Virus record (IMG/VR): IMGVR_UViG_3300044837_000078
Span: 1-64,000 of that record
Strand: one strand, 5' to 3'
DNA length: 64,000 bases
Source: a virus
A model generated the notes under the pieces. That model was not told the DNA's origin and ran no database searches. It saw only the letters and a list, made by a program, of their open reading frames with translations. The first letter of the stretch is position 1, and the number at the start of each line of letters is the position of its first letter. Shown here piece by piece: positions 1 to 14,461 of the stretch. The position numbers and the translations under genes were made by a program.

Positions 1-597
1 GGTCGGCGCGACGAATACCGGGATGCCCATCAGCACCGCATCAACTGCGACGTTGCTGGAGTGGGTCACCAGCGCCCAGCAGTTGCGCAGATCATCAGCT
101 AGCGGCGTCTTGCTCAATCGGTCGCGTACGACAATGGGGCGGTCGGTGCACCGCCTGACGTCCGCGACAATGCTAGCGATCCACGGCGGCATGTTGAAGC
201 CGATGGCCTGTCCGAACTCGCGGCCAGGCATCGCGATCAGAATGTGTCGCCCGTCGGCGTGCCACGGCTTCATAGCGACGCTGATGCGCGATGGCGGCGC
301 GTCCGTAAGAAGCGCCGGGCTCATGCCGCGATAGGTCATCCGGTAGTAGCAATCCGGTCCCTGGCCGCCGCGGCCTGGTTTCACCCATCCGTTGTCGAGA
401 TGCCAGAACGGGCGATTGCGTTTCATGGCCAGCGGTATCGCGACCAGCGCCAGCCACAGCTGGCCCCAGATTACGATGGCCTGATCGTCATCCGGCGGCA
501 GACCGTATTTCTGCCTTGCCCCGGGCCAACCTTGCGCAAGCGCCTCCATCAGCATCCCGGATTTTGCGGGACGCTGAGGCTCGACGCAGCACCACAC
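1..597 (-). CDS. GT-B-like glycosyltransferase or capsule-processing protein, partial
   Basis: An open frame of 199 codons runs from a GTG at 597 off the left edge, so the C-terminus is missing. The motif THSSNVAVDAVLMGIPVF near the visible end resembles the donor-binding region of GT-B sugar transferases and capsule-processing proteins. The N-terminal part is rich in Trp and Arg and shows no signal peptide. It lies directly behind the FkbM gene (same frame, one codon after its stop) in a cluster of sugar-modifying genes, which supports a role in glycan transfer. There is no clear ribosome binding site, so translation may be coupled to the upstream gene. The family call is inference. Confidence 0.6.
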   Translation of the reverse strand, partial: MWCCVEPQRPAKSGMLMEALAQGWPGARQKYGLPPDDDQAIVIWGQLWLALVAIPLAMKRNRPFWHLDNGWVKPGRGGQGPDCYYRMTYRGMSPALLTDAPPSRISVAMKPWHADGRHILIAMPGREFGQAIGFNMPPWIASIVADVRRCTDRPIVVRDRLSKTPLADDLRNCWALVTHSSNVAVDAVLMGIPVFVAPT

Positions 598-600
598 GGG

Positions 601-1254
601 CTATTTCCAGCGACAGATAAAGTCGCCGCTGATCTCCTTGACCACTTCCGCACCCCAAGAAACCAGCAGAGTGACTGCGACCGTATCGGCCAGACCGAAT
701 TGCGATCCCTTGCCGGGTTTTTGTTCAACCACGATGCACGGTTTATCGCGCTTGATCGTGTGCTCGCCGCCTCTTAGTGCGAAGTACTCATAACCTTCGC
801 AATCGAGCTTTAGAAAATCAACGTCCTTCAGTTCGAACGAGTCCAGCGTCTTCATTTGCGCCGAGTGCTCGCCGCCTTCCTTCACGTAGGTATCGCCGGA
901 CGACGATTCTCCGGTGTGAAGCGAGACGTTCCCCTCATGATCGCCAAGCGCATACGGAAACAGCGTGACGTTCCGAACTTCGAACCACTTCATGTTCCGC
1001 TCGAAGCAAGCGCGGTGGTTGACCACAGGCTCGAAGGCCGTCACACCGCCGAAGCATGCTGCCATCGGCCTGGCCCAAAGCCCGCAGTGCCCGCCTACAT
1101 CGACGGCGTGGCGAAAGTTGCGGATGAGCGGCATCGCCGCCATCAGCTTGTGCAACTGATAACTTGGGCCGCCCGCAAATTGCGGCCCATTCTCGAGGAA
1201 CGAAACCAGATGTTCCTCGCCGTCCGGCAGCCAAAACCCGTTGACCTGTTTCAC
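601..1254 (-). CDS. FkbM-family SAM-dependent methyltransferase
   Basis: This 217-residue protein has the FkbM signature: an AdoMet-binding loop AVDVGGHCGLW near residue 50, the acidic strand FEPV about 25 residues later, and the family hallmark VDFLKLDCEGYEYFALRGG around residues 143-161. Family members O-methylate sugars or polyketides. It starts with GTG and sits among genes for glycosyltransferases and a sugar cupin, so the likely substrate is a sugar attached to the virion or to the host surface. The fold assignment is firm; the substrate is inferred. Confidence 0.88.
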   Translation of the reverse strand: MKQVNGFWLPDGEEHLVSFLENGPQFAGGPSYQLHKLMAAMPLIRNFRHAVDVGGHCGLWARPMAACFGGVTAFEPVVNHRACFERNMKWFEVRNVTLFPYALGDHEGNVSLHTGESSSGDTYVKEGGEHSAQMKTLDSFELKDVDFLKLDCEGYEYFALRGGEHTIKRDKPCIVVEQKPGKGSQFGLADTVAVTLLVSWGAEVVKEISGDFICRWK

Positions 1255-1255
1255 T

Positions 1256-1468
1256 TCAATTCATCCGCTCTGCTTCCTCGGCGTCCCTGTCCCGATCCAG
1301 CCAATGGGCGTTGTCAGCCTGCAGCTTTTCTCGCGCCGCCTGATCTGGTGTGACTTTAAAAGCGTGCTCATACGCCGCCCGCCGCCAGTTGAATGGCTCG
1401 GTCGCATTATGCGGAAGGCCAATTTCATAGTTACTCGACTGCCAGAACTTTTCACCTATCCCAAACAT
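1256..1468 (-). CDS. Hypothetical 70-residue protein
   Basis: A short gene between the small membrane protein and FkbM. The chosen ATG at 1468 lies within the last codons of the upstream small gene; an in-frame start at 1513 would add 15 residues. The product begins MFGIGEKFW and has a charged, helical C-terminus (HWLDRDRDAEEAERMN). It ends almost at the FkbM GTG start, so the two are probably translationally coupled. No function is recognised. Confidence 0.6.
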   Translation of the reverse strand: MFGIGEKFWQSSNYEIGLPHNATEPFNWRRAAYEHAFKVTPDQAAREKLQADNAHWLDRDRDAEEAERMN

Positions 1469-1604
1469 GTACTGCACTCCTCCAAATATCGAACGCCGCA
1501 ACGGCAAGAACAAAGTAAGTCGTCATCACCACAAGAGCAAATTCGAAAGGTTCACTCGGCCGCGGCTTGCGCCGTTCCGATAGAACGATAATCTCTGCGG
1601 TCAT
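1452..1604 (-). CDS. Small single-span membrane protein
   Basis: A 50-residue frame begins at an ATG inside the 3' end of the GT9-like gene and overlaps the next gene by 17 bases. After a basic N-terminus (SERRKPRPSEP) it has one hydrophobic segment of about 20 residues (FALVVMTTYFVLAVAAF). The overlap pattern matches the rest of the operon, and the composition is not what a random shadow frame would give. It could anchor a glycosylation complex to the membrane, but that is speculation. Confidence 0.42.
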   Translation of the reverse strand: MTAEIIVLSERRKPRPSEPFEFALVVMTTYFVLAVAAFDIWRSAVHVWDR

Positions 1605-2364
1605 CCAAAATCCCTCGCGCCGCGTCCAAAACCTGTTCCGCCTCGATCGCGTCCATCGCCTGCCTGCAGTGCCAGCACTCTTGCGTGTTGCCGCAGGCCT
1701 CGTCCGCGCCGAACAGGTTGACGTGGGTCGCATAGCCCGTCGTCATCGGGTGAATATAGCCGCCGAAGATCACCACTGCCGGCGTGCCGACCGCGGCGGC
1801 ACCGTGGTGCAACCCGCCTTCGGGGCCGATGTAGAGCGAGCATCGCGCCAGCATCGCAAGCGAGGTGCGGAAATCCGGGCTTGAGATTGCAGTGGCGCCA
1901 GGAACGATCCGCTGGCCGTAATTGAACTGCACGACCTGATGGCCATCGCGCGCCAGTTGTTTTGCAACCGCCTTGTAGCGCTCCCACGGCCAGCGCTTGT
2001 TCGGCGCCAGTGCCTTGACGTGCGGCTCAATCAGAACGGCCCCAGCTGGCATCTCGAAGGCGGCGCGCTCGATCTCCTGCGGCGTGAAAAACATCTCGCC
2101 AGGTGTGGCGCGAAAATCCTCATTCCAGCGCCAGCCGCCATTCCGAGGCGTGCCGTAGAGCCTGTGCGCAGTATAGTGCCCAATCCATACGATGTCGCGA
2201 TCACGCTCCGAACCGGGCGGTGCGACGTTCTCATTGCCCTGAAAAATCAAATGCGCGTTTGCGTGCCAGTGGATGCGCCGGCCGTCGCCGAAGGCTATCC
2301 GCTTGCCGCGCGCGCGGGCGCCCCGGGCCATGCCGGAGCCCATGACCTCGTCACCTAGCCCCAC
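1552..2364 (-). CDS. GT9-like (heptosyltransferase-type) glycosyltransferase
   Basis: This 270-residue protein starts MGLGDEVMGSGMARGARARG and carries, in the C-terminal half, the GT-B donor site pattern CSLYIGPEGGLHHGAAAVGTPAVVIFGG typical of ADP-heptose:LPS transferases (GT9). The N-terminal domain is shorter than in bacterial GT9 enzymes (usually 320-350 residues). A Cys-rich stretch (CGNTQECWHC) precedes the end. It overlaps the cupin gene by 14 bases. Known relatives transfer a sugar from a nucleotide donor; the acceptor here is unknown. Confidence 0.78.
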   Translation of the reverse strand: MGLGDEVMGSGMARGARARGKRIAFGDGRRIHWHANAHLIFQGNENVAPPGSERDRDIVWIGHYTAHRLYGTPRNGGWRWNEDFRATPGEMFFTPQEIERAAFEMPAGAVLIEPHVKALAPNKRWPWERYKAVAKQLARDGHQVVQFNYGQRIVPGATAISSPDFRTSLAMLARCSLYIGPEGGLHHGAAAVGTPAVVIFGGYIHPMTTGYATHVNLFGADEACGNTQECWHCRQAMDAIEAEQVLDAARGILDDRRDYRSIGTAQAAAE

Positions 2365-2713
2365 GTTTCACCAGCCCGCCAACGTCCTTGCGAATGATGT
2401 CCTCGGATAGTTCCGGCGGATAGTAAATCTCGATCGCCTGTGCGCCGCGGGCGCCGGTCATGAACCGATGTTCCTCACCGGGCGGCACCGTGGTGAACTC
2501 GCCGGCCTTGATCTCAGTCACGTCGATCAGATCGTAAGCAGCCTTGTGGACCTCGATCTTGAGCGCACCCGACTGGACGAAAAACGCGTTCCACTTGTTG
2601 CGATGCAGGTGCAGCGAGCAGCGCGAATTCGGCTTGATGGTGAGGCGATGCACTTCGATGAACGGTGTCCGCAACAAAAGCTCGGTGCAGCCCCAGACCT
2701 TGCCGACTTTCAT
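2351..2713 (-). CDS. Cupin-fold sugar isomerase/epimerase-like protein
   Basis: A compact 120-residue single cupin. The two metal-binding motifs are visible as HLHRNKWNAFFVQSG (around residues 36-50) and PPGEEHRF (around 78-85), as in the cupin domain of type II mannose-6-phosphate isomerase and WxcM/epimerase-type enzymes. It overlaps both neighbours by a few bases. In this setting it probably isomerises or epimerises a nucleotide sugar for the adjacent transferases; the precise reaction is not deducible. Confidence 0.72.
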   Translation of the reverse strand: MKVGKVWGCTELLLRTPFIEVHRLTIKPNSRCSLHLHRNKWNAFFVQSGALKIEVHKAAYDLIDVTEIKAGEFTTVPPGEEHRFMTGARGAQAIEIYYPPELSEDIIRKDVGGLVKRGAR

Positions 2714-3492
2714 CGCCTATAGTCACCGAACGGCTCTGTCCGGTAGCGGTCCAGCGTATAGCCGGCCTCGATCGCGTCCCGCAGATACTTGTCGAACAGC
2801 GCCTGCACCTCGACGCGCGGGTGAGGGCGCGACTCGCCGGCGAACCAGTGCGGCCGCCCTTCGGCGGCAAGCCTCGCCTTGGCGTGCTTGTGCGTTGGCT
2901 GCGTCGGAATGTTGGTGTAGTGCAGCGCCTTCACGTCGGGATCGAAGATCGTGGGATAGCTCTCGCCGTCGCGGCAGTTCCAGTTGCCGTCGAAGGCTTG
3001 AATCCATTTTGAGCCGCTGTCGGCCAGCGTGCGGCGGATATTGCGGTAGCAGTTTGGGGCCTGCCGGATGTCGTGGATTGGTGGCAGGATGCGCTCCAGC
3101 GCCTCGCAATCCATCAGCATCGTGCAGAACGTGTTGCCGTCGCCCTTGGAGATGATCGCCTTGCCGGGCTCGAATGCCTGATCGTTGAGCTTGGCGATGT
3201 CGTCCATGACGATCATGTCGCAATCCATGTAGATTGCGTTGCCCTTGTAATTGCACGCCGCCGGGATGCCCCAGCGCAGCGCCGAGAACGGCGTCGCCCA
3301 GGTCGAGGTTCGCCAGCCTTGGCCCTTGTCCGGGTTCGAATACCAGAAGCTCGCAGGATCCTTCGACAATCGCATCCAGACCAGATCGATGTCGTCGGCC
3401 GGGTGATGGCGCCGCAGCGAATACTCAAACACGGCCTGTGCTTCCAGATCCTCGTCGTTGGCCGAGGTTCCGATAAACATCCTGATCGTCAT
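2710..3492 (-). CDS. GT8-like (DxD) glycosyltransferase
   Basis: A 260-residue protein starting MTIRMFIGTSANDEDLEAQ with a GT-A arrangement. An N-terminal Rossmann-like part is followed by the metal/nucleotide-binding DxD motif in IYMDCDMIVMDDI near residue 109, then a C-terminal HYTN and HWF region like that of glycogenin/GT8 enzymes. It would transfer a sugar from a UDP- or GDP-donor. It overlaps the genes on both sides by 4 bases, so it is fully embedded in the late operon behind the capsid gene. Confidence 0.75.
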   Translation of the reverse strand: MTIRMFIGTSANDEDLEAQAVFEYSLRRHHPADDIDLVWMRLSKDPASFWYSNPDKGQGWRTSTWATPFSALRWGIPAACNYKGNAIYMDCDMIVMDDIAKLNDQAFEPGKAIISKGDGNTFCTMLMDCEALERILPPIHDIRQAPNCYRNIRRTLADSGSKWIQAFDGNWNCRDGESYPTIFDPDVKALHYTNIPTQPTHKHAKARLAAEGRPHWFAGESRPHPRVEVQALFDKYLRDAIEAGYTLDRYRTEPFGDYRR

Positions 3493-4205
3493 TGCGCCGC
3501 CAGTTGGGTAAGGAGCGCCACGCCTTCATCGACGCTGCATTTGTCGAACGCGCGTACCGTGGTGACCGGCGAGGCGTTCATGACCTTGATATTTTTGACC
3601 AGAAGCTGGTCGCGGCAACCGAGGAAGTTGTCTCCCCAGTTTTGCCAATAACGGGCGTTGTGACGTGCGCCATTGCGCCACGTCTCCGGGTCCATCTCGA
3701 CATAGCGCTCATGGTTGTGGTGAACGTCGGGATGATCGAGATAATCGAACCCGAACAGCACCCATTGCCATGGATGCCGGCGCGGCCCGCGCTTGTGGAA
3801 TCCTAGTTGCGTTGCGCCAAAACCGGAATTGCCGCCCGATTGAATGACGCTAGGGTCGTTGCTGTAGCCGTCGAACCGCGAGCGCAGATAATAGGTCGCG
3901 CCTTCGATAACAGCGCACGGCCCATATTCAGGCTCGACGGCGAAATGTTTTTCCATCCGCAGCGCGTTGAACCGCGCGGCCCGCTTGTTGATGTAGGGAC
4001 GATCCAGCGAGAACAGCGCATCCGCGAACGGCACATCCCAAATCGTCTCGTTGACAGCAATGACGCGGATGCCAGGTATGCGCAGCCGATCGAAGTCAAA
4101 GCCTTTCAGAGATGGGCCGCCGCCAACTATCGCTAACGGGCGATCGTCCCACCACGGCTCGGCGACTGAGCCGAGCGGCGGCAGCGGCGAATTACGCTGC
4201 AGCAT
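3489..4205 (-). CDS. DUF115-like protein (MptE-type Rossmann fold)
   Basis: A 238-residue protein with an N-terminal nucleotide-binding loop LAIVGGGPSLKGFDFDRL (about residues 24-41), followed by VIAVNETIWDVPFADALFSLD. This pattern is seen in DUF115 proteins, some of which modify glycans or flagellin. A long aromatic/His-rich middle (HPWQWVLFGFDYLDHPDVHHNH) is characteristic of phage-encoded versions. Placement before a GT8-like gene supports a role in glycosylation. The family call is moderate and the activity unknown. Confidence 0.65.
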   Translation of the reverse strand: MLQRNSPLPPLGSVAEPWWDDRPLAIVGGGPSLKGFDFDRLRIPGIRVIAVNETIWDVPFADALFSLDRPYINKRAARFNALRMEKHFAVEPEYGPCAVIEGATYYLRSRFDGYSNDPSVIQSGGNSGFGATQLGFHKRGPRRHPWQWVLFGFDYLDHPDVHHNHERYVEMDPETWRNGARHNARYWQNWGDNFLGCRDQLLVKNIKVMNASPVTTVRAFDKCSVDEGVALLTQLAAQ

Positions 4206-4464
4206 TCTTGCGCGGTCGGCCGGGCCCGCGTTTGGCGCGCTGCTCTAGCACTTGCGCCACAGCGGTCATCGGGGGCGATGCGACCGCGATCCATCGCTTG
4301 ACGTACATTTCTTCCAGCACGCGCGGCGAGTTGATCGTGGTCTTGTCGAACGGCTCGCCCGGCTTCGGCTGGTAGCCGTTGACGGTAAAGCCTTGCGGCC
4401 ATGCCGACACCTCGAAATCGGCGTAGGGATCGAACTTCGGGAGCCAGTAATACGATGGTGCCAT
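4192..4464 (-). CDS. Small basic-tailed protein downstream of capsid
   Basis: Ninety residues starting MAPSYYWLPKFDPYADFEV, ending in KRGPGRPRKNAAA, which looks like an AT-hook (GRPRK). The ATG at 4464 is preferred because it lies just after the capsid stop; an upstream start would overlap that gene. Position after the major capsid gene is where HK97-type phages place connector or minor capsid genes, but no such family is recognised here. Confidence 0.7.
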   Translation of the reverse strand: MAPSYYWLPKFDPYADFEVSAWPQGFTVNGYQPKPGEPFDKTTINSPRVLEEMYVKRWIAVASPPMTAVAQVLEQRAKRGPGRPRKNAAA

Positions 4465-4487: not shown

Positions 4488-5501
4488 TCAAGCAACCACG
4501 GTCGCGAAAAACGTTCCGCATTCCGCAGCTACAAGCTTTTGCGTGAACGCCATCTGCATTTCGATCCGGTCGGATTCCAGATTCTCCATGCGGAAGCGCT
4601 TGACGCGCTGGCCGGCATTGCCCGCGCCGAGGAATCCCGTCCAGGAGAACGTGTAACCGCCGGATGGCTGCATCAGACTCGGCGCCGGAGCTGCGTACAC
4701 CAGCAACGCCGCCTTGCCGCCGATGAAGGCGTTGGACTCAAGTCCGTTGAACGTGCCGCTTTCATGGCCGGTGTTCTGCACAGCGTCCATGACCAGGAGG
4801 CTGTCGATTTCCATCAAGGCCGCAACCGCCTGCTTGGTGACGATCGCCGGTGCGCCCGGGGAAGCGCCGTATTTGATGCGGTCGGTGATCGACCCGTGAT
4901 CCTCGAGCTTCGACCAGACCTGTCGGCCAAGCACGAGCTTGTTGGGACGGAAACCGCCGGACGCCAGATGGATCTTGTCCGCGTTGGAACGCACGTCGGT
5001 GATCGGCGTGGCGTTCGGGTCGTTCCATTGCAACACGGTGTTGCCCGCGGGCGAGGCCGAAACGCCGGTGACGTCCACACCAGAGCCGGTCCAGATGCCG
5101 GTGGTGAAGTAGTTCGACGCCCACTGCACTTCGCGGCTGATCAGCGCCTGATTGGACAGGAACATGGTGGCGTCGCGGTCCATGTCCAGCGGCGAATCCG
5201 CGTTGGCGCGGATCTGGTCTTCGACGTCCTTGTGCAGCGCCCAAACCGGGGCGTAGTACGACGGCGTATTGTCGATCCGGTAGCTAGCGCCGGCGGATTC
5301 CGTTCCTGGCGCGCGCTGGCGCATGGTGTCGCGGTTAAAGTCGCCCCGCGAATAGGTGTAATAACGGTCAGACTGCTTGGCGACCGGGACGTTCGGGAAG
5401 ACCTGATCCGCCACGAAAGCGGAGGCATTCTGCATGAACGCGATCGAGATGTTGGTGAGCGGGGTGTTTACGTGGACATCCCCTGCTGTCGGGTTGCTCA
5501 T
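4488..5501 (-). CDS. Major capsid protein
   Basis: A 337-residue protein beginning MSNPTAGDVHVNTPLTNISI with no signal or membrane segment. Its size, position after protease, scaffold and decoration genes, and segments such as VWALHKDVEDQIRANADSPLD and RNLES-type C-terminal strand (KRFRMENLESDRIEMQMAFTQ) fit an HK97-fold coat protein of the family common in alphaproteobacterial phages. The exact Pfam family is not certain. A strong hairpin terminator lies just upstream, so the gene may have its own promoter or depend on readthrough. Confidence 0.82.
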   Translation of the reverse strand: MSNPTAGDVHVNTPLTNISIAFMQNASAFVADQVFPNVPVAKQSDRYYTYSRGDFNRDTMRQRAPGTESAGASYRIDNTPSYYAPVWALHKDVEDQIRANADSPLDMDRDATMFLSNQALISREVQWASNYFTTGIWTGSGVDVTGVSASPAGNTVLQWNDPNATPITDVRSNADKIHLASGGFRPNKLVLGRQVWSKLEDHGSITDRIKYGASPGAPAIVTKQAVAALMEIDSLLVMDAVQNTGHESGTFNGLESNAFIGGKAALLVYAAPAPSLMQPSGGYTFSWTGFLGAGNAGQRVKRFRMENLESDRIEMQMAFTQKLVAAECGTFFATVVA

Positions 5502-5595: not shown

Positions 5596-5967
5596 TTACG
5601 ACAGGCCGCGGGGCTGGATCAGCATCGCGAAGATGTCACCGCTTGAGGCCGAAGCCAGAGCGATGCCCATGAAATTATTGTCGGCCGACGAGGCGTTGAC
5701 CGCAGCACCGTTGGCATCGGCAACCAGCGCCTGGCCTGCGGTGATCGAACCGCCGGCCACGACCTTGCTAATGCCGCTGGGACGGATGCGAGCGGCGCGG
5801 GTAGCCGCCGCAGGGGCATCCTGCAGAACGCCTGCGGAAAGCTGGCCGCGGGTCGAAACGGCTGCGTTGCCCGACGAGTCGACGGTGATGAAGCGGTACT
5901 GCTTGGTGGAAAGATCGGCTGCCGCAGGCAGCGAGAAGTCGAGATTATTACCGTGATCGAACGACAT
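5596..5967 (-). CDS. Capsid decoration / head-stabilising protein (DUF2190-like)
   Basis: A 123-residue, Ala/Gly/Ser-rich beta protein (RFITVDSSGNAAVSTRGQLSAGV; GGSITAGQALVADANGAAV) resembling small decoration proteins encoded directly before the coat protein. An AAGGAA ribosome site precedes the ATG. No catalytic motif is present. The call combines composition and gene order. Confidence 0.68.
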   Translation of the reverse strand: MSFDHGNNLDFSLPAAADLSTKQYRFITVDSSGNAAVSTRGQLSAGVLQDAPAAATRAARIRPSGISKVVAGGSITAGQALVADANGAAVNASSADNNFMGIALASASSGDIFAMLIQPRGLS

Positions 5968-6078
5968 GGGTCGTTCCTTTCATTTTATCGAAGATAAAAG
6001 GGAAATGCGGGGGCGCGCCCGCCGGCCGTCAGGAGGACCAGCCAGCGAGCGCTAACCGCGCGATTGCCGCCCAGGAGC

Positions 6079-7188
6079 TTAAGCGGCGCGCTTCTCGGTG
6101 AGCGACTTGGCGTAGGCAGCCTTGCCCTCGGCCGTCTCGAGCACCTTGGTGTAGGCGACTGCCTTGGACACCGTCTTGTCCGCGGCCATGTAGGTCGCGA
6201 CCATCTTCTCGATATCGCCTTCGCCAGTGCCTTCGCCGCTGCCGTCCTTGCCGAGCGTGGTCAGTTGGGTTTTCATCGCCGCATTGCCGCCCTTGAGCAT
6301 GGCCTCGACGACCTCGCGGTCCTCTTTCGCCAGTTTGGAGACAGCGCGCAGGGCTTTCGCCTTGGCGATCGACGTGCCAGGCAGCGACGGGATTTCGGTC
6401 TCGGCGCGCTTGGTGAAGGCGTTGATCTCGTTGGTCTCGGTCAGGGATTTCATGACCTTGAACTGATCCTCGCCGATCACCGACTTGCGCAGCACAACGC
6501 CGTCATGCTCGAGAGTTTCATCGCTCTTGGCAATGTCGGCGCGTTTGGCGATCTCGGCGTCGAACTCTTCCTTGGCCTTGGCGACCGCCTTGGCGACGCG
6601 CTTCTCGGTATAGGAGCGCCATGCCTTCTTGGCATTGTCGTCCATATCGTCCGCGTCAGGCTCGGGTTCGCCGTCGGTGGAGCTGTCGTCATACGGCTTT
6701 TTCTTGGGTGCCGCCTTCTGCAGAGCGGTAAGCGCCGCCGTGGTGTCAGTGAGTTTCTTGGTGATCTCGCCGGTCGACTTTGCGACCGCGTCTGCGATCA
6801 TCTTCTGGATTTCTGCTTCGGTCATGTCTTCAATCCTTTCATGGCCGTGGTGGCTTTTGGCTACCCAACCGTCGGGCAGCATGGAGGTTGCGCCGAGCGA
6901 CTTGGCGCGGCTGATGATATGGGCTTTTGCCTTGGCCGGGTCTTTGGCCCTGCCGATGGCGTGGATGGCGTTCTTGAGGTCCGCCGTGGTGGAAATGGGA
7001 AAGCTGCCGTCTGGCAATGCCGCCCCGGTGGATGCGAGATGATCGCGCTGGTCGGACGTAAAGTCGCGTTTCCAGTATTCATCGGCGCTGTCGTCGCGCT
7101 TCATGATGGTCATGCGCGCGCCGGCCTGGGCCGGCCGGTCAACGGCGCTGATCTCGTTCATCTTGAACGCCCGCATGATGCGTTTCAT
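6079..7188 (-). CDS. Scaffolding-type coiled-coil protein with N-terminal S78-like EISAVDRPA motif
   Basis: A 369-residue protein. The ATG at 7188 overlaps the previous stop (ATGA). Residues about 10-30 read MNEISAVDRPAQAGARMTIM, which matches the 'E(V/I)S.VD.PA' strand found in S78/XkdF head maturation proteases. The rest is charged and helical, with long Lys/Ala/Glu coiled-coil stretches (about residues 120-230) typical of internal scaffolds that are degraded on maturation. It lies between the protease and decoration/coat genes, the usual scaffold position. Whether the N-terminal motif completes the separate protease is an open question. Confidence 0.7.
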   Translation of the reverse strand: MKRIMRAFKMNEISAVDRPAQAGARMTIMKRDDSADEYWKRDFTSDQRDHLASTGAALPDGSFPISTTADLKNAIHAIGRAKDPAKAKAHIISRAKSLGATSMLPDGWVAKSHHGHERIEDMTEAEIQKMIADAVAKSTGEITKKLTDTTAALTALQKAAPKKKPYDDSSTDGEPEPDADDMDDNAKKAWRSYTEKRVAKAVAKAKEEFDAEIAKRADIAKSDETLEHDGVVLRKSVIGEDQFKVMKSLTETNEINAFTKRAETEIPSLPGTSIAKAKALRAVSKLAKEDREVVEAMLKGGNAAMKTQLTTLGKDGSGEGTGEGDIEKMVATYMAADKTVSKAVAYTKVLETAEGKAAYAKSLTEKRAA

Positions 7189-7445
7189 TTTGGAGGCTCT
7201 CCGACTTCGATGATGACGTCGCCGCGAACAACTTCCTCTAAGACGTTTTCGCCATCGGTGGTGATATCGCCGTCCTCGTTCACGACAGCGCGGCGCACCC
7301 ATCCTTTGACCGCATCGGCAGCGGTGCACAATTTTTGCGGCACGCCATTCAGCGTTATGGTGATATTCTGATTATTTTTGGACGCCTCGCAATATTGGGT
7401 ATAGCCGGGCTCGCCATCCACAATCGACGCGCGCTCAAGCCTCAT
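7185..7445 (-). CDS. Hypothetical 86-residue head-region protein
   Basis: Starts at an ATG overlapping the previous stop and ends in an ATGA overlap with the scaffold gene, so it is translated in series with its neighbours. The sequence (LERASIVDGEPGYTQYCEAS then KLCTAADAVKGWVRRAVV) has two cysteines and a negatively charged C-terminus. No family is recognised. Confidence 0.68.
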   Translation of the reverse strand: MRLERASIVDGEPGYTQYCEASKNNQNITITLNGVPQKLCTAADAVKGWVRRAVVNEDGDITTDGENVLEEVVRGDVIIEVGEPPK

Positions 7446-7771
7446 GCCGGCAATCCCACCTGTTTCATCGTCTCGCACCGATACCAGCGCTTGATTTCCT
7501 CAAGGTCGCGGTCGGAGCACGTCACTTCGACGCCGGGCTCTGATGTCAGGCTGTGCCGCGCCATCTTCATCTTGAGCCGCACGCACGGCAGCGGCACGGT
7601 CTGGCCGCGCTTGCCGAAATACAGTTTCAGGTCTTCGTCGGTCGGCGGCCCGGCGACGTCGATTTCCTCGCGGCCCATGCCGGCGAGGAACGCGCGCACC
7701 GCATCATGAACGCCGGAGTCGAACGAGATCAGCCAGCGAACGGGCGCGGCAGCGGCAAGGCCGAAGTTCAT
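7442..7771 (-). CDS. Hypothetical 109-residue head-region protein
   Basis: Starts MNFGLAAAAPVRWLISFDSG; the ATG at 7771 overlaps the stop of a 56-residue upstream gene, which makes it preferable to the in-frame start at 7834. It contains a basic segment (VRLKMKMARHSLT) and a Cys-containing C-terminus (CSDRDLEEIKRWYRCETM). No function is recognised; it lies between protease and scaffold. Confidence 0.68.
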   Translation of the reverse strand: MNFGLAAAAPVRWLISFDSGVHDAVRAFLAGMGREEIDVAGPPTDEDLKLYFGKRGQTVPLPCVRLKMKMARHSLTSEPGVEVTCSDRDLEEIKRWYRCETMKQVGLPA

Positions 7772-7938
7772 TGCGCTTTCAGTTCGCGCGTTTTTGCGTC
7801 GATAATTTCGGCACCGATACGCATAAGAGACCAACCGATAATGATTGCCTCTTCCTGTAACCCGCGCTCAATCGCATCTTCGCGAAGCAACCATAGTGAG
7901 CGGCCTACGGGCGAAAGATAGCGAGGCGCCGGTTTCAC
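7768..7938 (-). CDS. Small 56-residue protein in an overlapping gene chain
   Basis: A GTG-started frame overlaps the protease stop (GTGA) and its own stop overlaps the next start (ATGA). The product starts MKPAPRYLSPVGRSLWLLRE and continues with a helical segment including IIIGWSLMRIGAEIIDAKTR. The double overlap exactly fills what would otherwise be a 160-base gap, which is strong circumstantial evidence that it is a gene. Confidence 0.6.
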   Translation of the reverse strand: MKPAPRYLSPVGRSLWLLREDAIERGLQEEAIIIGWSLMRIGAEIIDAKTRELKAQ

Positions 7939-8669
7939 GCCGCGACCTCTTCGTCCTCAACGCGCCAGCCGCCTATCGAAAAGCCTGTGTATTCGCCTGA
8001 GCGATATTTCGCGAGGATGTCTGGCGGCGGCATCATCGCAATCATCAGGCCGGTGGTGTCGCATTGAATGTTCATCGCCTTGGCGATGTCTGTGGTGAGC
8101 GGCCACGCGAACACCACGGGACCAATCTCGCTGCCACGGTGCATGTCCTTGGCGACGCGGCTGTTCTGCATGAAGTCAGCAGCCGCCTTCAGCATCGAAT
8201 GTTCCGGGATGTGATCCGGCTCCGGCTCGCCGGTCTCTTGGTTGCACTGCAGATCGAAATACGGCTCGCCCTTGATCTTGCAGACGATGGCCCAGCCGAA
8301 CACGAGGCCGAGCGAATCATCGACCTTGAACACCTGTGCGGTTGTCTCGAATTTTTCCACGTCTTCCCCATAAGGCTTGCGCTTGGGCGGCTTTTTGCCA
8401 GCGCCGAGCGGGACATCGACATGAACGTCGCCAGCGCCGGGGCCATCCGAGGTTGTGCCGCCGTCATCCTTGAAAACCCACTTCTTGCCGGTTGCCGGAG
8501 CTTCCCAGCCTGCGCTCTTAACCGCCGCCCAGCCCTGCCGAATGCAGCCGTTATGGTCGATCTTGGCTTGCTCGGCTTCCGATGCGGCCTTACAAAAGAC
8601 GTCCAGCGCCGCCTGCGGCAGGAACCGCGCGACGGCGGACACAGCGGGCGACGTTGCGTTAAATGGCAT
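7935..8669 (-). CDS. Head maturation protease: ChaB-like N-terminus plus XkdF-type S78 serine protease
   Basis: A 244-residue protein. Residues about 10-50 (FLPQAALDVFCKAASEAEQA ... QGWAAVKSAGWE) resemble ChaB-type domains found at the front of phage proteins. Residues about 100-240 form a protease-like domain of the XkdF/S78_2 group: a strand LGLVFGWAIV, a D-M-H near the presumed catalytic His, and YTGFSIGGW with the presumed nucleophilic Ser. It would cleave scaffold and capsid during head maturation. The ATG at 8669 is chosen because the protein then begins at the conserved domain. The C-terminal 'EISxVDxPA' strand is absent here and appears in the scaffold gene. Confidence 0.75.
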   Translation of the reverse strand: MPFNATSPAVSAVARFLPQAALDVFCKAASEAEQAKIDHNGCIRQGWAAVKSAGWEAPATGKKWVFKDDGGTTSDGPGAGDVHVDVPLGAGKKPPKRKPYGEDVEKFETTAQVFKVDDSLGLVFGWAIVCKIKGEPYFDLQCNQETGEPEPDHIPEHSMLKAAADFMQNSRVAKDMHRGSEIGPVVFAWPLTTDIAKAMNIQCDTTGLMIAMMPPPDILAKYRSGEYTGFSIGGWRVEDEEVAA

Positions 8670-8774
8670 GATCAGTCTTTGTCCTTTGCCCACCAAGGTC
8701 GCGGCATCCCGCCCTTTTCAACGGTGGTCGGCGGCGGAGGCGGCGGAACATCCTTTGCAGGGATTTTTCCCACG

Positions 8775-8987
8775 ATGACTTCTCCGTTCTGCAGCGACGA
8801 AACGGTCGACACCCCGCTGGCCGAGCCTCACGGTTCAGCGCTGGCGTTCCTCTCAGACCTGCACGAGCAGGTTGAGATGCAGATAAATCAGTGCAGCGAC
8901 GACAGCTTGCGGCAAATTCTGGTAGACTTGCGCGGCCGGATTGAAGCGGCGGGGTTGTTGGTTATGACGGGAGGAGTGAAGCGATGA
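8775..8987 (+). CDS. Small acidic protein of a plus-strand insertion
   Basis: Seventy residues (MTSPFCSDETVDTPLAEPHG..., then SDLHEQVEMQINQCSDDSLR) encoded against the direction of the head operon. It ends in an ATGA overlap with the next plus-strand gene, so the two form a mini-operon, a moron-like insertion between protease and head morphogenesis genes. No family recognised. Confidence 0.55.
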   Translation: MTSPFCSDETVDTPLAEPHGSALAFLSDLHEQVEMQINQCSDDSLRQILVDLRGRIEAAGLLVMTGGVKR

Positions 8988-9232
8988 CGGACTGGCAACC
9001 GATTGAGACAGCGCCTGACGACGAGGTAATATGGCTAGGTTGCGAGAGCGATCCTGCTGTCGATCGCCATATGTTTTTCGTTGGCCTTGGTTGGAAAGAG
9101 AAAGACGGCTTTTGGGACGTGACCGAAAACGACATCCGTTACTTCTCGCACTGGGCCAAGATCACAAGTCCAGTGCCTGGAGCTGCAGTTACGTTTCACC
9201 GGCGCGGCGAATACACTGTCAACGCAGCTTGA
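8984..9232 (+). CDS. DUF551-like small protein
   Basis: The 82-residue product opens MTDWQPIETAPDDEVIWLGC, the W-x-P-I-E-T-A-P signature of small DUF551-type phage proteins, and ends in a beta-rich, aromatic region. It converges with the head morphogenesis gene, overlapping its 3' end by 14 bases. The molecular role of this family is unknown. Confidence 0.7.
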   Translation: MTDWQPIETAPDDEVIWLGCESDPAVDRHMFFVGLGWKEKDGFWDVTENDIRYFSHWAKITSPVPGAAVTFHRRGEYTVNAA

Positions 9233-10361
9233 ACCTGTAAATCAGACTGCATCGGCAGTTGATCGTCAGCTCAGGCTCAGCGCTCGGATCACCGGGATAG
9301 GCTAGGCCGTAAGAGAAAAGATCATTCAGGCCGACTGTCTCGCCATCCATCTCGGCATGTTCCGGCCTGACCTTGTGGTCGCCGACTGTTATCCATTTCT
9401 TCGTGACTTGCCCAACCTCGAGCTTGCCGGAATTTACGGCCTGATTCCAAAGTTGATTGTTGCCTGCGTTCAAAGCCCGGATCGATTCCGTCCGCGCGAT
9501 GGTCTTGGATCGATATTTGAGGTACCGCGCCGAATAGCGCGAGACCATGGTGTCGATCTGCTCGGTCGACAAAGCACTCTCGCCGCGAGCAGCACGAGCC
9601 ACAGTCGGATCAAAGCGTCGGTCGCGTAGTTGCCGCGAAAGCGCATCGCGTGACCCGCTGGTCAGAGCACCTCTATAGTTCTGCACAGCTTTCGTCTGTG
9701 ATTCGGTCAGGCCGATGAACTGCCGCACGTCGCGCGCCACGTCGATCGGGTTGCGCCCGGCCGCGGCGCCTGCCTGTATCGCCGTGCGCACGCTGGCCAG
9801 GGCATCCGAACTCATGGCCCGGATCAGGCCCATCTCATAAGTTCGCAGGAAACTCACCGTCTGCGGATTGGTGATGCCGAACGATATGTTCATCTCGCCG
9901 AGCGCATTGACCGCGCGCGCCGTCTGCCGTGCCGCGTCGACCGCCGCGCCGGTGATAGCTTCTGCGACCGGCGCAAACCCCTGTTGCAGCAGCTGCGCGT
10001 CAACGGTGCGGATGGCTTGGTCGACGCGGCCCTGTTCCAGCAGCGACTTGATCTGCTCGACGTCGATCTGGTCGCCGAGAGCATTCACCGCGTCCAGAAA
10101 CGCCTGCCGGACCTTGGCGCTGATCTGGTCGGCTTGGCGGAGCAGGCGGTCGAGTTCGGCCTGGTCGGCGGCGGACATCTTGGCGATAAAGTGCCGGGGC
10201 TTTTTGATTGTCTCGGGTAGATGCAGTGCATCGGGCTCCGTAGCCCATAACCGATTCGCGGGTAGCTTCCCGGCTAAAACCCCGCCACGACTAGGTCTAG
10301 CATGACGATGCCGCGAGAGCCACCTCGGATCAGTGGCGGACTTGGCGACGACGATCTGCAT
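9219..10361 (-). CDS. Phage head morphogenesis protein (Mu gpF-like)
   Basis: A protein of about 380 residues whose C-terminal part has the head morphogenesis signature: RSKTIARTESIRALNAGNN, then KKWITVGDHKVRPEHAEMDG and NCRCSLIYRF at the end, matching the SPP1 gp7/Mu gpF family of minor head proteins. The N-terminal third is a coiled coil (residues about 62-110). The ATG at 10361 overlaps the stop of a 31-residue upstream frame (TGATG); an internal ATG at 10178 (MSAADQAEL) is the alternative start. It follows the portal gene, as in Mu- and SPP1-like phages. Confidence 0.85.
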   Translation of the reverse strand: MQIVVAKSATDPRWLSRHRHARPSRGGVLAGKLPANRLWATEPDALHLPETIKKPRHFIAKMSAADQAELDRLLRQADQISAKVRQAFLDAVNALGDQIDVEQIKSLLEQGRVDQAIRTVDAQLLQQGFAPVAEAITGAAVDAARQTARAVNALGEMNISFGITNPQTVSFLRTYEMGLIRAMSSDALASVRTAIQAGAAAGRNPIDVARDVRQFIGLTESQTKAVQNYRGALTSGSRDALSRQLRDRRFDPTVARAARGESALSTEQIDTMVSRYSARYLKYRSKTIARTESIRALNAGNNQLWNQAVNSGKLEVGQVTKKWITVGDHKVRPEHAEMDGETVGLNDLFSYGLAYPGDPSAEPELTINCRCSLIYRFKLR

Positions 10362-10456
10362 CAATGTAAGAACTGCACCACAAGGGCAATCAGGCACAGC
10401 AAGACACTAAATCCAGCAAGCATATTGCAAACAATGTCGCCTGTTCGATGGCTCAT
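10361..10456 (-). CDS. 31-residue membrane peptide
   Basis: The frame MSHRTGDIVCNMLAGFSVLL... is one hydrophobic span of about 20 residues (LAGFSVLLCLIALVVQFL). Its stop overlaps the start of the head morphogenesis gene (TGATG). It is too short for certainty, and the ribosome site is weak. Confidence 0.35.
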   Translation of the reverse strand: MSHRTGDIVCNMLAGFSVLLCLIALVVQFLH

Positions 10457-10473
10457 CTCGCTATTATCCGCAT

Positions 10474-10689
10474 TTAGCCGACGCTGGCAAACGCCCGCGT
10501 GTCAGGCGGATTGGACACAAACCGCGTGATATTGCCGTCCAGCGCGCGGGCCATGCCTGGATCGCTCTGCTTGAGCTGCGAGATCAGCCAGCCTGCCAGC
10601 ACCACCTGGTTGCCGTCGGCGAGCGTATACGCCGCAATCGCGGTCTTGAGCGTGCCCCACGCGGTATCGATATCAGTCTGAACGGTCAT
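10474..10689 (-). CDS. Hypothetical 71-residue protein
   Basis: Starts MTVQTDIDTAWGTLKTAIAA with an amphipathic helical N-terminus and ends in a Pro/Asp-rich tail. It overlaps the upstream small gene by 17 bases. It lies between portal and head morphogenesis genes; no family recognised. Confidence 0.62.
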   Translation of the reverse strand: MTVQTDIDTAWGTLKTAIAAYTLADGNQVVLAGWLISQLKQSDPGMARALDGNITRFVSNPPDTRAFASVG

Positions 10690-10873
10690 TCAAGTCTCCA
10701 TTATTTCGAACCGTAGCCTTTTTATCGCACTGGGCATGGTCCTCGGCCGTCATCGACTCGATTGTGCCAAATGGCGCAATTTCAGGAGGGTCTTTGCCAA
10801 ACTTCTTTCTGTAGAGATCATCATCGTACAAAGCGCCATCTGGTCCAATTGTTCGAAACCCATCCCGTGCCAT
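10673..10873 (-). CDS. Hypothetical 66-residue charged protein
   Basis: MARDGFRTIGPDGALYDDDL followed by a Lys/Asp-rich helix, 11 bases after the portal stop. Probably a minor head or assembly factor by position only. Confidence 0.62.
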   Translation of the reverse strand: MARDGFRTIGPDGALYDDDLYRKKFGKDPPEIAPFGTIESMTAEDHAQCDKKATVRNNGDLNDRSD

Positions 10874-10884
10874 AAACTGAACTC

Positions 10885-12405
10885 CTATTTTCCGCCGCGC
10901 CCGGGCCCGGCCGTATTGGTCTCGAACCCTTCGGCGGCTAGGTCCGTAGTGTTGCCACCAATGTCGGCCCCGGCTTCGTCCACAGAGGCTTCACTGACAC
11001 CGCCCGGCAGTTGCAGCCCGGTTTCCTCCGGCGGTTCCGGCAATCCCGCCACATCAGCGAGATGATCGGACAATTCCGGATTGGGAAACAGCGGCGCGCC
11101 GGCGGCGGCCAATTGCTGAATATAGGTCCCTAGTTCTGACAGATCGACCGGCGCAACCCGGCCAGGCTTCATCTCCGGCATCAAGTTATAGGGCAGGCCG
11201 TTGTAGGCCCAGATGCGTGGCAGCAGGAAGCGATTAAGCACCGCGGCGATCTGGTTGAGGTAGGTCTCGCAGGCCCGCAGGAACAGTTCCGACTTGTTCT
11301 TGCTCAGCGCGTAAGAACCCTTCTGGTCGCCCAACGTGATGAAATCGGCCAGCGCCGACATCGCGATGTTGCGGTTGTACCGGGCAATGATCGGATCGGT
11401 GTCGATGGCGCGGCGGCCGCCGGTGGACAGCAGCCTGACGTCGACGAGCGGCGCCGCCGAGATGGTGCCATCCGGGTTCGGATATCGGTCCGACGGCAGC
11501 ACGATGCCGCCCTGCTGATTAAACTTTACGTCGCGGGCGATCTTCTCATAGAGCGCGCGCACCGCCTTGTCTTCCGCAGAAGCGTTGGCCAGCAGATACT
11601 TTGCCGGGATCGACACCACGGGAAGTCCGGCTAGCTCGCGCTCGATGCCGATCGCCTCCATGTCCTCGATGTTTTTCTTCTTGTACCAGGAACGATACGC
11701 CGCCCGAAGGATCGAGACGCCCTCCGGGTTGTTCTTCTTCGAGGTAGTGCGAAACAGCAACCCGCGCACGATCGGGATAAACAGCAGCGGTCCGCCTTGA
11801 GGCGGCATCTGCCACAGCCCATCGATACCGCCGTCGCTCTGCATTTCCCACCGCATTAGCGAGTCTTGCGAGCGAATCGGAAGCTTGCGGATGCCAATGC
11901 GGCCGTCGGTGAATTTCGACCGGGTAGACGCATCGGTTTGATCGGGCCCGACGCGGCGCTTGAGAATTATCTCATGGTACGACCAGCCGAACGTCAGCAT
12001 CGACATGATTTCGGAAATCGTATCTTCCCAGCTGTGCGACATGTCGTCGAGCAGTGAGCGTGCGAATTCGGCCTCCTTCTCAGCCTCCGGCGTGTCATTG
12101 GCGGGCTCAACCCGCCAATCCACAGCGCGCAAAATCAGGATAATCGCGGTCAGGACCGCGTTGACGATCGCATCGCCTTCCGACATCTCCTTGTAGATGC
12201 GGATCGCTTGGACGCCGCGAAGTTCTTGAATGTACTCTTCGTTGACGTAGCCCGAGAAAACCTTGAGGCCGGAAACGCCGATCTCGCCAAAGGCTTTCGC
12301 TTTCGGATCGCCCTGAATGGTTGAGGCGCCGCCGCCGTAGGGCGATCCATCTGTCTTTGGCGGTCCCGGCGGTGCGACCTTGGCGATGTCGTCTGCTTCA
12401 GCCAA
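10885..12405 (-). CDS. Portal protein (DUF935/Mu gp29-like)
   Basis: A 506-residue protein at the normal size of this portal family. Diagnostic stretches are MSEGDAIVNAVLTAIILILR with DWRVEPAND, the wing/stem region YHEIILKRRVGP, and the C-terminal SALADFITLGDQKGSYALSK that lines the channel in DUF935 portals. It forms the dodecameric DNA entry ring. It lies 9 bases after the large terminase stop and ends in a Gly/Pro-rich tail. Confidence 0.9.
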   Translation of the reverse strand: MAEADDIAKVAPPGPPKTDGSPYGGGASTIQGDPKAKAFGEIGVSGLKVFSGYVNEEYIQELRGVQAIRIYKEMSEGDAIVNAVLTAIILILRAVDWRVEPANDTPEAEKEAEFARSLLDDMSHSWEDTISEIMSMLTFGWSYHEIILKRRVGPDQTDASTRSKFTDGRIGIRKLPIRSQDSLMRWEMQSDGGIDGLWQMPPQGGPLLFIPIVRGLLFRTTSKKNNPEGVSILRAAYRSWYKKKNIEDMEAIGIERELAGLPVVSIPAKYLLANASAEDKAVRALYEKIARDVKFNQQGGIVLPSDRYPNPDGTISAAPLVDVRLLSTGGRRAIDTDPIIARYNRNIAMSALADFITLGDQKGSYALSKNKSELFLRACETYLNQIAAVLNRFLLPRIWAYNGLPYNLMPEMKPGRVAPVDLSELGTYIQQLAAAGAPLFPNPELSDHLADVAGLPEPPEETGLQLPGGVSEASVDEAGADIGGNTTDLAAEGFETNTAGPGRGGK

Positions 12406-12414
12406 GGCCTATCC

Positions 12415-14064
12415 TCAATAGTTGCTTTGCGGACCTGCCGAGACCTGAACCGGGCTGCCGATGTCGATATCGCGCGACGCTGGCGGATCGACGAAAGTGA
12501 GCATCAACGCATCGGCGTGGTCTGGGCTTGCGATGCCGCGTCGAGCCAACGCTTCTTTCTTTTCAATCACGATCTTGCCGCGCTCATTGCGGCCCCACTT
12601 CACCAGAGATAGCTGAAGGCAAAGCGCGTCGCTTTCCTTATCGCCACTCGGCAGCGCCAGCAGATCCGTCAACGCGTGCTCTTTGCCACCTTCGGCATTT
12701 TCAAGAAACCGGACGTGCTCATGGGTGCGCTGTAAGGCCGTACGGCACAGCCACCAGACTTCGGCCTTGAGGTTGCCGAACATCTCCTCGGATGTCCGAT
12801 CGTCAGGCCAAAGACGTCGCGATGGCGGCAGGCCGGTATTGATCGCAACAACGCCGATCCCGGCGACCGGGTTTTTCATCAACGTGGAAGAGACGCCGGC
12901 GCCGACGCCGGGCGCGTCAAAACCGATCCACCTCACCGTGGTGGTGCGGGCGATACCAATTGCCCAGAACGCGGTCTCCGTCGTGTCGGGATCACCGCGA
13001 GATTGCGGCGTGTCGACGATCGCGCCTCTACGCACGACGGCAATAGACTTGGCTTTGCCGGCGCCGACATCGAGGCCGAGAGTGCTCTGGTTCGATGCGA
13101 CGAGGCGAGGCTCCAGCGCCTTCAACCGCTTTGCGCTTTCAACCCAGATAGCCGGGATACACACGCCCTCAACCGAGGCCGAATAGTCGATGTCGTATTC
13201 GCTGGCCCATGTCGTTGGGTCAGAGAAGCTTGCCTGCTTCGTCGCAGCCCACTCGTTCGTCTTCCGTGGATCATCGCGCCAGTGCAACCGGGCAATCTGC
13301 CGCTGGCCCAAAATCGAATGCCGCTTGCGGGCGAAAAGGTTCCCCATGCCGTTGACGGATGAAATCCAGATCACGCAATCGGTGTTGCCGGATAACGCCT
13401 TCTCGACTGTCTCGGCATTGGGAACGTGTGCGGCCTCGTCCAGAAAATAGACCGTCGATCGGCCACCGCGGCCCATGTTATCACCGCCTTCACCGGAGAT
13501 GACCGCTTCCGACTTCGGGTTGGCGAGGCGCATGTAGTTGTCGTGAACGCCCGCATTGAACCCCTCGGGGAGCATCTCGGTCGGCAACCTCCGCAACATG
13601 ATCCGTAGCTTCGCGAAGATGCTGTCCGGGTTATCCTTCTTGTCCACAAAATCGACGATGCGTGAGCCGAACGTCGCCTTGAAACCAGGCACGAACAGCC
13701 ACTGATGCAATGCGACGCCGGCACACAAGTACGTCGCGCCGGTGTCCCGGCTTTTTTCGATCAACCCTTCTTCGGGAACGCGGATCCGATCAAGTATCCA
13801 AAGCACGATCTCGCGCTGCTTCGGCCATAGCTTGAACTGAAGGAACGGACCACCGGGTTTGCCGGTGAGCCTCGGGTCATAGGTCCAAACCCAGCGATCG
13901 AACCAGTACAGAATATCGGCCGCGCACTTCGCGCGCTCGACTTCCCATCCACCTTCCTGCGCAGCGGCTGACCTACGTTCCCTCTCCGCCCTGATCGCCG
14001 CCATCATCGCTGCCGGCTGCGGCAAGGGGACCGAAGATAGCTTCGAGCGCTGCGAGTTGTTCAT
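12415..14064 (-). CDS. terL: Terminase large subunit
   Basis: A 549-residue packaging motor. The ATPase part shows a degenerate Walker A, EKSRDTGAT (residues about 103-111), and a Walker B VYFLDEAAHV (205-214). The C-terminal RNase H-like nuclease is marked by LGLDVGAGK (about residue 337) and SPDHADALMLTF near the end. The frame overlaps the small subunit gene by 92 bases from the first ATG or 35 from the ATG at 14007; neither has a strong ribosome site. Cys-rich HEN insertions or inteins are not visible. Confidence 0.92.
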   Translation of the reverse strand: MNNSQRSKLSSVPLPQPAAMMAAIRAERERRSAAAQEGGWEVERAKCAADILYWFDRWVWTYDPRLTGKPGGPFLQFKLWPKQREIVLWILDRIRVPEEGLIEKSRDTGATYLCAGVALHQWLFVPGFKATFGSRIVDFVDKKDNPDSIFAKLRIMLRRLPTEMLPEGFNAGVHDNYMRLANPKSEAVISGEGGDNMGRGGRSTVYFLDEAAHVPNAETVEKALSGNTDCVIWISSVNGMGNLFARKRHSILGQRQIARLHWRDDPRKTNEWAATKQASFSDPTTWASEYDIDYSASVEGVCIPAIWVESAKRLKALEPRLVASNQSTLGLDVGAGKAKSIAVVRRGAIVDTPQSRGDPDTTETAFWAIGIARTTTVRWIGFDAPGVGAGVSSTLMKNPVAGIGVVAINTGLPPSRRLWPDDRTSEEMFGNLKAEVWWLCRTALQRTHEHVRFLENAEGGKEHALTDLLALPSGDKESDALCLQLSLVKWGRNERGKIVIEKKEALARRGIASPDHADALMLTFVDPPASRDIDIGSPVQVSAGPQSNY

Positions 14065-14461
14065 CCGAGGCTTTGGTCAGGTCAACGGTCGTGATCGGGC
14101 CGCCACCTCTGCCGGTCAGTTCGATTAGTGATTTTTCAGTTTGCCCAAGATGGAATTTCGACAGGTGCACCGTCATCTGCACGCCGGCGCTGTTGGGCAA
14201 CAGCATCAATTGAAACTGCCGGCGCCGGATGGAAAGCATGCCGAGCGCCTTGCCACGGTCCCAGATTTCCCGGAGTTCCGGCTCTTTCAGCCGCCGCTTC
14301 ATGGTGTCGAGCGACACCTCGAAGAAGGCTGCCAGTTCCTCCATCGTGCACTGAAGCTTCGATAGCCGCAGCAAATTGGCCTTGTTGACGGCGATCTTCG
14401 GCCGGCCGATTTTCCTGCGCTTGCGCTTTTTTGGTGCCTTTGGCTTCTCGGACTCGCTCAT
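13973..14461 (-). CDS. terS: Terminase small subunit
   Basis: A 162-residue basic-to-acidic protein. A very basic N-terminus (KAPKKRKRRKIGRPKIA) leads into a helix-turn-helix (LQCTMEELAAFFEVSLDTMKR), then a coiled region and an acidic Gly-rich tail. This layout and the place immediately before TerL identify it as the DNA-recognising packaging subunit. It overlaps the YkgJ-like gene by 4 bases. Confidence 0.88.
   Translation of the reverse strand: MSESEKPKAPKKRKRRKIGRPKIAVNKANLLRLSKLQCTMEELAAFFEVSLDTMKRRLKEPELREIWDRGKALGMLSIRRRQFQLMLLPNSAGVQMTVHLSKFHLGQTEKSLIELTGRGGGPITTVDLTKASDEQLAALEAIFGPLAAAGSDDGGDQGGEGT

Follow-up and report, generated by a model that had tools for sequence, protein, structure and literature searches.

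Why would a phage place glycosyltransferase and methyltransferase genes between its major capsid gene and its neck genes, and on what would their products act? The question is raised by a cassette of minus-strand genes at the start of the window, which is the 64,000-nucleotide stretch analyzed here (positions 1 to 64,000 of the IMG/VR virus record IMGVR_UViG_3300044837_000078). The answer that we favor, with modest confidence, is that the cassette enzymes glycosylate and methylate virion proteins in the cytoplasm, with the sugars taken from host-made donors. An earlier note on this DNA had proposed that a sugar is built and methylated either on the virion or on the host surface. This is still the best available reading, and its virion half is strengthened by the recurring placement of related cassettes among head and neck genes, but the complete route that was also proposed does not stand (see below).

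Profiles of five core families (DUF115-like, GT8-like, GT9, FkbM, and KpsC-like GT-B) were run on fetched contigs together with structural proteins as queries, and a locus was counted when at least three of the five families were found on one strand, with redundancy removed by shared 31-mers. This survey yielded 96 loci, which form 62 nonredundant clusters, 19 of them with all five families. (L-numbered loci are contigs from IMG/VR, except for L123 and L125, which are from the genome collection.) Among the clusters that contain a DUF115-like gene, 35 of 39 have a recognized virion gene (capsid, portal, connector, or tail) at most 4 kb upstream or 6 kb downstream, and these clusters span several unrelated phage architectures. 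The capsid-to-neck placement, with the same gene order, is found in IMG/VR contigs L029, L031, L041, L045, and L108 and in others. In the Mu-like phages L033 and L034, the cassette is between portal and adaptor (portal, adaptor, sheath, and tube were confirmed by PHROGs), in L035 it is between tail sheath and tail tube, and in L054, L060, L065, L078, and L100 it adjoins the adaptor (in L078, from the adaptor to the tail genes); a position between protease/head and portal genes was also seen. Since the gene set and its order are conserved in dozens of other phages, a chance arrangement is excluded.

The KpsC-like family looks nearly virus-specific. Its profiles found 155 related stretches in the viral collection versus 3 in a collection of 84,980 bacterial and archaeal species, in searches that were pattern based, miss distant homologues, and used slightly different patterns in the two collections. 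This distribution makes it less likely that a common host gene was captured recently. The 3 nonviral stretches sit in two Kiloniellaceae metagenome bins, and 2 of the 3 (L123 and L125) adjoin phage portal/connector genes. Several cassettes have further genes. Radical SAM/SPASM proteins are encoded within those of L045 (7061-8017) and L108 (3462-4445), and L044, a 118-kb contig in which the cassette is upstream of the head module, has a 2OG-Fe(II) oxygenase (7329-8132). Some versions of the cassette do include donor synthesis, as shown by that of L070 (14380-18411), which encodes a UDP-galactopyranose mutase and an NAD-dependent epimerase.

In the window, seven enzyme or small genes and a second small open reading frame (ORF), all on the minus strand, separate the major capsid gene from the neck genes. 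These genes and the upstream flank are as follows.

4488..5501, minus strand: major capsid protein (E-type), flanking the cassette upstream (phrog_1005, E = 3e-82)
4192..4464, minus strand: small protein at the capsid-cassette junction, 90 amino acids from ATG, at most 109 if from 4521
3489..4205, minus strand: DUF115/MptE-like, sialyltransferase-like putative glycosyltransferase, 238 amino acids (phrog_4603, E = 6.6e-15)
2710..3492, minus strand: GT8-like putative GT-A glycosyltransferase, 260 amino acids (invariant DxD and distant matches)
2351..2713, minus strand: cupin, 120 amino acids, possible sugar-modifying enzyme (Cupin_2, E = 5.5e-8)
1552..2364, minus strand: GT9 heptosyltransferase-family glycosyltransferase, 270 amino acids (PF01075, Glyco_transf_9, E = 3.5e-12)
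1452..1604, minus strand: small ORF, 50 amino acids, one apparent transmembrane segment, window-specific (translation)
1256..1468, minus strand: small soluble ORF, 70 amino acids (gene call)
601..1254, minus strand: FkbM-family methyltransferase, 217 amino acids (PF05050, Methyltransf_21/FkbM, E = 1.6e-15)
597 to 1 and then record positions 66509 to 66333, minus strand: KpsC-like putative GT-B glycosyltransferase, 257 amino acids in full (fold of a modeled homologue)

Successive cassette genes overlap by 4 to 53 nucleotides or are separated by gaps of 1 to 3 nucleotides. Based on this overlapping, same-strand layout, it is likely that the cassette is expressed late together with the structural genes, as had been supposed earlier. 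Promoter and terminator scans gave numbers of hits no higher than expected by chance. The GC content of the cassette is 0.609 versus a genome average of 0.602, and a foreign insertion is thus unsupported by base composition. The capsid protein is ~50% identical to those of Pseudomonas phages RSP and KPP23 and Roseobacter phages RDJL.

The 66,636-bp record has an exact end-to-end repeat of 127 bp, which makes it a circularly complete genome of ~66,509 bp. Because of this terminal identity, the gene that is interrupted at window position 1 resumes at the other end of the record. The earlier note had placed the cassette at 1 to 4205, and all the genes that it named are present on the minus strand near there, but this extent is too short, since the GT-B gene runs past position 1. 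Beyond the end of that gene (66333) are an 80-amino-acid ORF, a Ser/Thr-rich protein of 324 amino acids, a phrog_1732 protein, and the head closure protein Hc1 (phrog_161), and after Hc1, on the neck side, there are tail completion, tail terminator, and major tail proteins (PHROG-based). A location between capsid and connector genes, as first described, is therefore confirmed by phrog_1005 on one side and by Hc1 on the other.

The identities first proposed for these genes (DUF115-like, GT8-like, cupin, GT9, small membrane protein, FkbM, and GT-B) hold up, with a tentative GT8 label that comes from the invariant DxD and distant matches, as Pfam gave no match for it. The DUF115-like protein of the window itself matches PF01973 (DUF115/MptE-like) below threshold; 18 of 23 members of its family match PF01973 (best E value, 1.4e-7), and an AlphaFold2 model of the protein (pLDDT, 90.6) has a Foldseek match to viral MptE-like proteins (E = 3e-7). 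Based on its family profile and predicted fold, we conclude that the product of 3489..4205 is a member of the DUF115/MptE-like group. In PHROGs this protein is labeled alpha-2,3-sialyltransferase. Its resemblance to the GT42 enzyme CstII is weak (profile E value of 0.011 across just 22 residues; Foldseek E value of 0.037, probability of 0.84), and after these profile and fold checks the sialyltransferase label is a weak one. The GT8-like protein is 44 to 52% identical to its homologues in L033, L034, and L044 (52% and 48% in L033 and L034), with D90-x-D92 invariant, and is homologous to the GT8-like protein of sister cassettes by profile comparison (hhalign, 98%). The nearest PDB family is GT8, but the matches are weak (best profile E values of 0.12 and 0.035).

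The remaining enzymes are as follows. The cupin has a secondary match to the C-terminal part of mannose-6-P isomerase (E = 1.2e-5), and cupins are present again in the related marine cassettes L067 to L073. The GT9 protein matches PF01075 with 46.6 bits (curated cutoff, 22) and heptosyltransferase II (1psw, profile E value of 8e-6), and it is 38% identical to gp522 of phage CcrBL9. The FkbM protein matches PF05050 with 58.1 bits (curated cutoff, 22.7), phrog_8156 (E = 5e-27), and FkbM in the PDB (2py6, E = 6e-6), and it is 38% identical to CcrBL9 gp481. For the GT-B protein there was no usable sequence-level match to solved structures, and only fold comparison was informative, which used an AlphaFold2 model (pLDDT, 93.4) of the L004 homologue (60% identical to the window protein). 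The top 16 Foldseek matches of this model are all KpsC/WbbB 3-deoxy-D-manno-oct-2-ulosonic acid (Kdo) transferases (E values of 4e-6 to 6e-4; probability of 1.00 for the best), which act by Kdo transfer from CMP-Kdo. By its predicted fold, the GT-B protein is kin to KpsC and WbbB, but the same donor is not implied at template modeling scores of ~0.5. DUF6716, a "putative glycosyltransferase" domain, is matched by 11 of 21 members of the GT-B family; Pfam Capsule_synth against this family gave nothing above cutoff. An invariant D-N-G motif in the family (D68 in L004) contains a candidate catalytic Asp. All of the cassette enzymes are predicted to be soluble.

The two nearest relatives of the window phage, L003 and L004, have capsid proteins 88 to 89% identical to that of the window and keep the gene order, with the DUF115-like protein 58 to 59% identical, GT9 78 to 80%, FkbM 73 to 74%, and GT-B ~60% (in L004). 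In place of the GT8-like/cupin pair of the window, these relatives have another GT8-like gene and a class I methyltransferase, so the "exact gene set" of the earlier proposal is not fixed. The GT8-like variant of the window is that of the Mu-like myophages L033 and L034, and the swapped middle genes together with this Mu-like variant indicate that the cassette is modular, with parts exchanged between unrelated phages. The small protein at the capsid-cassette junction (85% identical in L004 and 80% in L003) overlaps the next gene by 14 nucleotides and had no match in a Pfam scan. The 50-amino-acid ORF has no counterpart between GT9 and FkbM in L003 or L004, and the longer, 85-amino-acid form of the small soluble ORF has no Pfam or PHROG match. 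In L003, frame changes, due to either sequencing error or real inactivation, split the GT8-like gene (5730-6471) and the GT-B gene (8404-9169). L003 also has a downstream extension (9869-14372) with a TPR-containing protein, a further methyltransferase, and four Ser/Thr-rich proteins (21 to 24% Ser+Thr). When the DUF115-like protein of the window was used alone as a direct query against IMG/VR, it gave no match, and the profiles of its relatives were needed. The capsid-neck interval of cultured phages with related capsids (Pseudomonas RSP, Roseobacter RDJL1, Rhizobium RHph_TM3_3_9 and Y52, and Ruegeria Tedan) has no annotated glycosyltransferase or methyltransferase and holds only small or structural genes; at the cassette position, IMG/VR contig L005 has small ORFs and then tail genes.

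Other than the cupin (a predicted protein with no assigned activity), the window cassette showed no gene for nucleotide-sugar synthesis. The donors must therefore come from the host, and the "complete donor-modify/transfer/methylate route" claimed for the cassette fails. No flippase or polymerase was seen in it either, and in particular Pfam and PHROGs gave no GtrA flippase, GtrB bactoprenol transferase, or multipass Gtr; the only ORF with an apparent membrane segment is that of 50 amino acids, which has a single one. A serotype-conversion gtr cluster was considered and rejected because these components are missing. Given soluble enzymes, no flippase or polymerase, and no donor synthesis genes, the simplest scheme is cytoplasmic transfer from host donors onto concurrently produced proteins. 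The kinship of the GT9 and KpsC-like enzymes suggests that these would be donors for lipopolysaccharide (LPS) or capsule synthesis.

This scheme builds on what is observed, namely, the gene identities, their conservation, the exchange of modules, and the place of the cassette in blocks of virion genes. The cassette genes would be expressed late and in step with the capsid and neck genes, as their strand and overlaps suggest. A first host-derived sugar would then be put on Ser/Thr residues of a virion protein, either by the DUF115/sialyltransferase-like enzyme, in analogy to the Maf enzymes, which O-glycosylate flagellin, or by one of the other three transferases. The GT8-like, GT9, and KpsC-like enzymes would lengthen the glycan, and from family and fold the plausible host donors are ADP-heptose and CMP-activated ulosonic acids. 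O-methylation by FkbM and tailoring by the cupin, or by the alternative methyltransferase, might follow, and phages that swap the middle genes would thereby alter the glycan and gain a variable particle surface. Candidate targets are the capsid protein, the Ser/Thr-rich 324-amino-acid protein, and other virion (head, neck, and fiber) proteins. The 324-amino-acid protein has 20% Ser+Thr versus a genome median of 11% and is separated from the cassette by the 80-amino-acid ORF; flanking Ser/Thr-rich proteins are found in L003 and L029 as well as in the window. A wider and distinctly tentative proposal is that this is a widespread virus-dedicated cassette, exchanged among phages of the sipho, myo, and jumbo types that infect Gram-negative bacteria and mostly sited in the head/neck block, which would build a methylated, variable virion glycan coat from CMP-Kdo or other CMP-ulosonic acids and ADP-heptose, with gene swaps tracking changing bacterial or protist recognition.

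Several observations weigh against virion proteins as the target. Of the clusters without a DUF115-like gene, 20 of 23 have no recognized virion gene and 3 of 23 have one, a count that is biased for these cassettes since the structural queries were drawn mostly from DUF115-containing loci. In Pelagibacter phage Mosig, a related cluster adjoins nucleotide metabolism genes rather than virion genes. LPS and capsule synthesis are the best-known settings of GT9, KpsC-like, and sialyltransferase-like enzymes, which would fit host-surface targets equally well, and the glycosyltransferase clusters of jumbo phages have been interpreted as modifiers of surface polysaccharides or the host surface (Iyer et al., PMC7824862).

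The main rival explanation, which we consider possible but doubtful, is accordingly that nascent LPS or capsule precursors are altered at the inner membrane late in infection, either masking the receptor, so that progeny are spared binding to debris and infected cells, or excluding rival phages. Besides that published interpretation, the membership of GT9 in the LPS heptosyltransferase family, the match of the GT-B fold to KpsC (the capsule-linker Kdo transferase) and WbbB, and the mutase and epimerase genes adjoining the L070 cassette all fit this explanation. However, the phage is probably temperate, judging from a tyrosine-type integrase (44899-45960) and a helix-turn-helix regulator (25274-25948) in the window, and yet the cassette lies within the chain of virion genes rather than in a region expressed during lysogeny. 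Late expression would leave little time for surface remodeling, the cassette lacks GtrA/Wzx-type flippases, GtrB, and polymerases, and its neck-region placement is repeated in unrelated phages.

It is improbable that these genes are ordinary cargo, that is, accessory genes gained separately and retained at a permissive site within the late operon, either with no joint function or acting on some other host protein, such as flagellin. The mosaic makeup of the cassette, with its exchanged GT8-like/cupin pair and two window-specific small ORFs, and the broken GT8-like and GT-B frames of L003 would be expected of cargo, but the five families occur together repeatedly and in a kept order across the 62 nonredundant loci (19 with all five), the GC content equals the genome average, and the catalytic-type motifs are invariant. 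DNA hypermodification, in which sugars on modified phage bases block restriction, is a frequent role of phage glycosyltransferases (for example, in Shewanella phage Thanatos, PMC12838424) and the phage has a C5-methylase-like gene, but such a role is highly improbable here and unlikely on gene content, since no TET/JBP oxygenase or pyrimidine hydroxymethylase was found among the 20 nonstructural proteins scanned with Pfam (a subset of the genes), the cassette is distant from the DNA genes and has virion genes as neighbors, and its families are of the protein/LPS type and not DNA glucosyltransferases.

Elsewhere in the window, the C5-cytosine methylase-like gene (43486-44247) has a match confined to its N-terminal part, and a Dam-type adenine methylase is at 21289-22032. 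A GcrA cell cycle regulator gene (23498-24109; PF07750, E = 2e-35) is the sole pointer to the host and hints at an alphaproteobacterium; the narrower label "rhizobial" is unproven, as the cultured phages with related capsids infect Rhizobium, Roseobacter, and Pseudomonas. Two genes of the fiber region (50969-51739 and 52761-54923) share a related C-terminal module, and each matches phrog_3545. Between the tape measure and tail genes, a small plus-strand ORF (61488-61784) interrupts the minus-strand tail operon and, judged by eye, looks like a homing-type insert.

Experimental cases of glycosylated phage particles are mainly mycobacteriophages. Maf belongs to the wider DUF115 group. Flagellin is glycosylated by Maf enzymes in the cytoplasm (PMC4065374). 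The phage protein shares the DUF115/MptE-like fold family with these flagellin glycosyltransferases, but the phage versions are short and single domain. Similarly, the phage GT-B protein and the retaining Kdo transferases KpsC and WbbB have a predicted fold in common (E = 4e-6, probability of 1.00), but identity is only ~12%. The polysaccharide clusters of jumbo phages and cyanophages have glycosyltransferases, cupins, and methyltransferases (Iyer et al. 2021, PMC7824862) and, unlike the window cassette, contain genes for sugar-nucleotide synthesis; neither FkbM nor sialyltransferase is named in that paper. The Mosig cluster resembles the window cassette, with homologues of FkbM, GT8-like, and GT-B (two of the last) grouped together, but no DUF115-like or GT9 homologue was found in it. 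A literature search, with most subscription papers outside its reach, gave no description of this gene set or of its head/neck placement.

Mycobacteriophage capsids have been shown experimentally to bear glycans made by phage enzymes (Freeman et al. 2023, as cited in PMC11256854). Virion glycosylation of the Che8 type is like the window cassette in its phage-encoded glycosyltransferases. In contrast to the capsid/neck placement of the cassette, Che8 gp108-110 are at the genome end, and homology with them was rejected because none of the cassette profiles matches them even at an E value of 10. The cultured Caulobacter phage CcrBL9 (Dolichocephalovirinae) has a single block (gp522-gp527, mostly annotated as hypothetical) of homologous genes for DUF115-like, GT-B, GT8-like, class I methyltransferase, and GT9 proteins, but it has two GT-B copies, has FkbM elsewhere (gp481), lacks a cupin, and has its block after the tail genes and before the endolysin. 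Its growth on laboratory Caulobacter makes the question directly testable. If our favored reading is correct, a common, syntenic, and nearly virus-specific gene set among the virion genes of many environmental phages would imply that phages of Gram-negative hosts often have glycosylated particles, with consequences for adsorption, particle stability, and recognition. Phage-made virion glycans are already known from mycobacteriophages, and what appears to be new here is this cassette and its placement, identified by synteny and with a predicted function.

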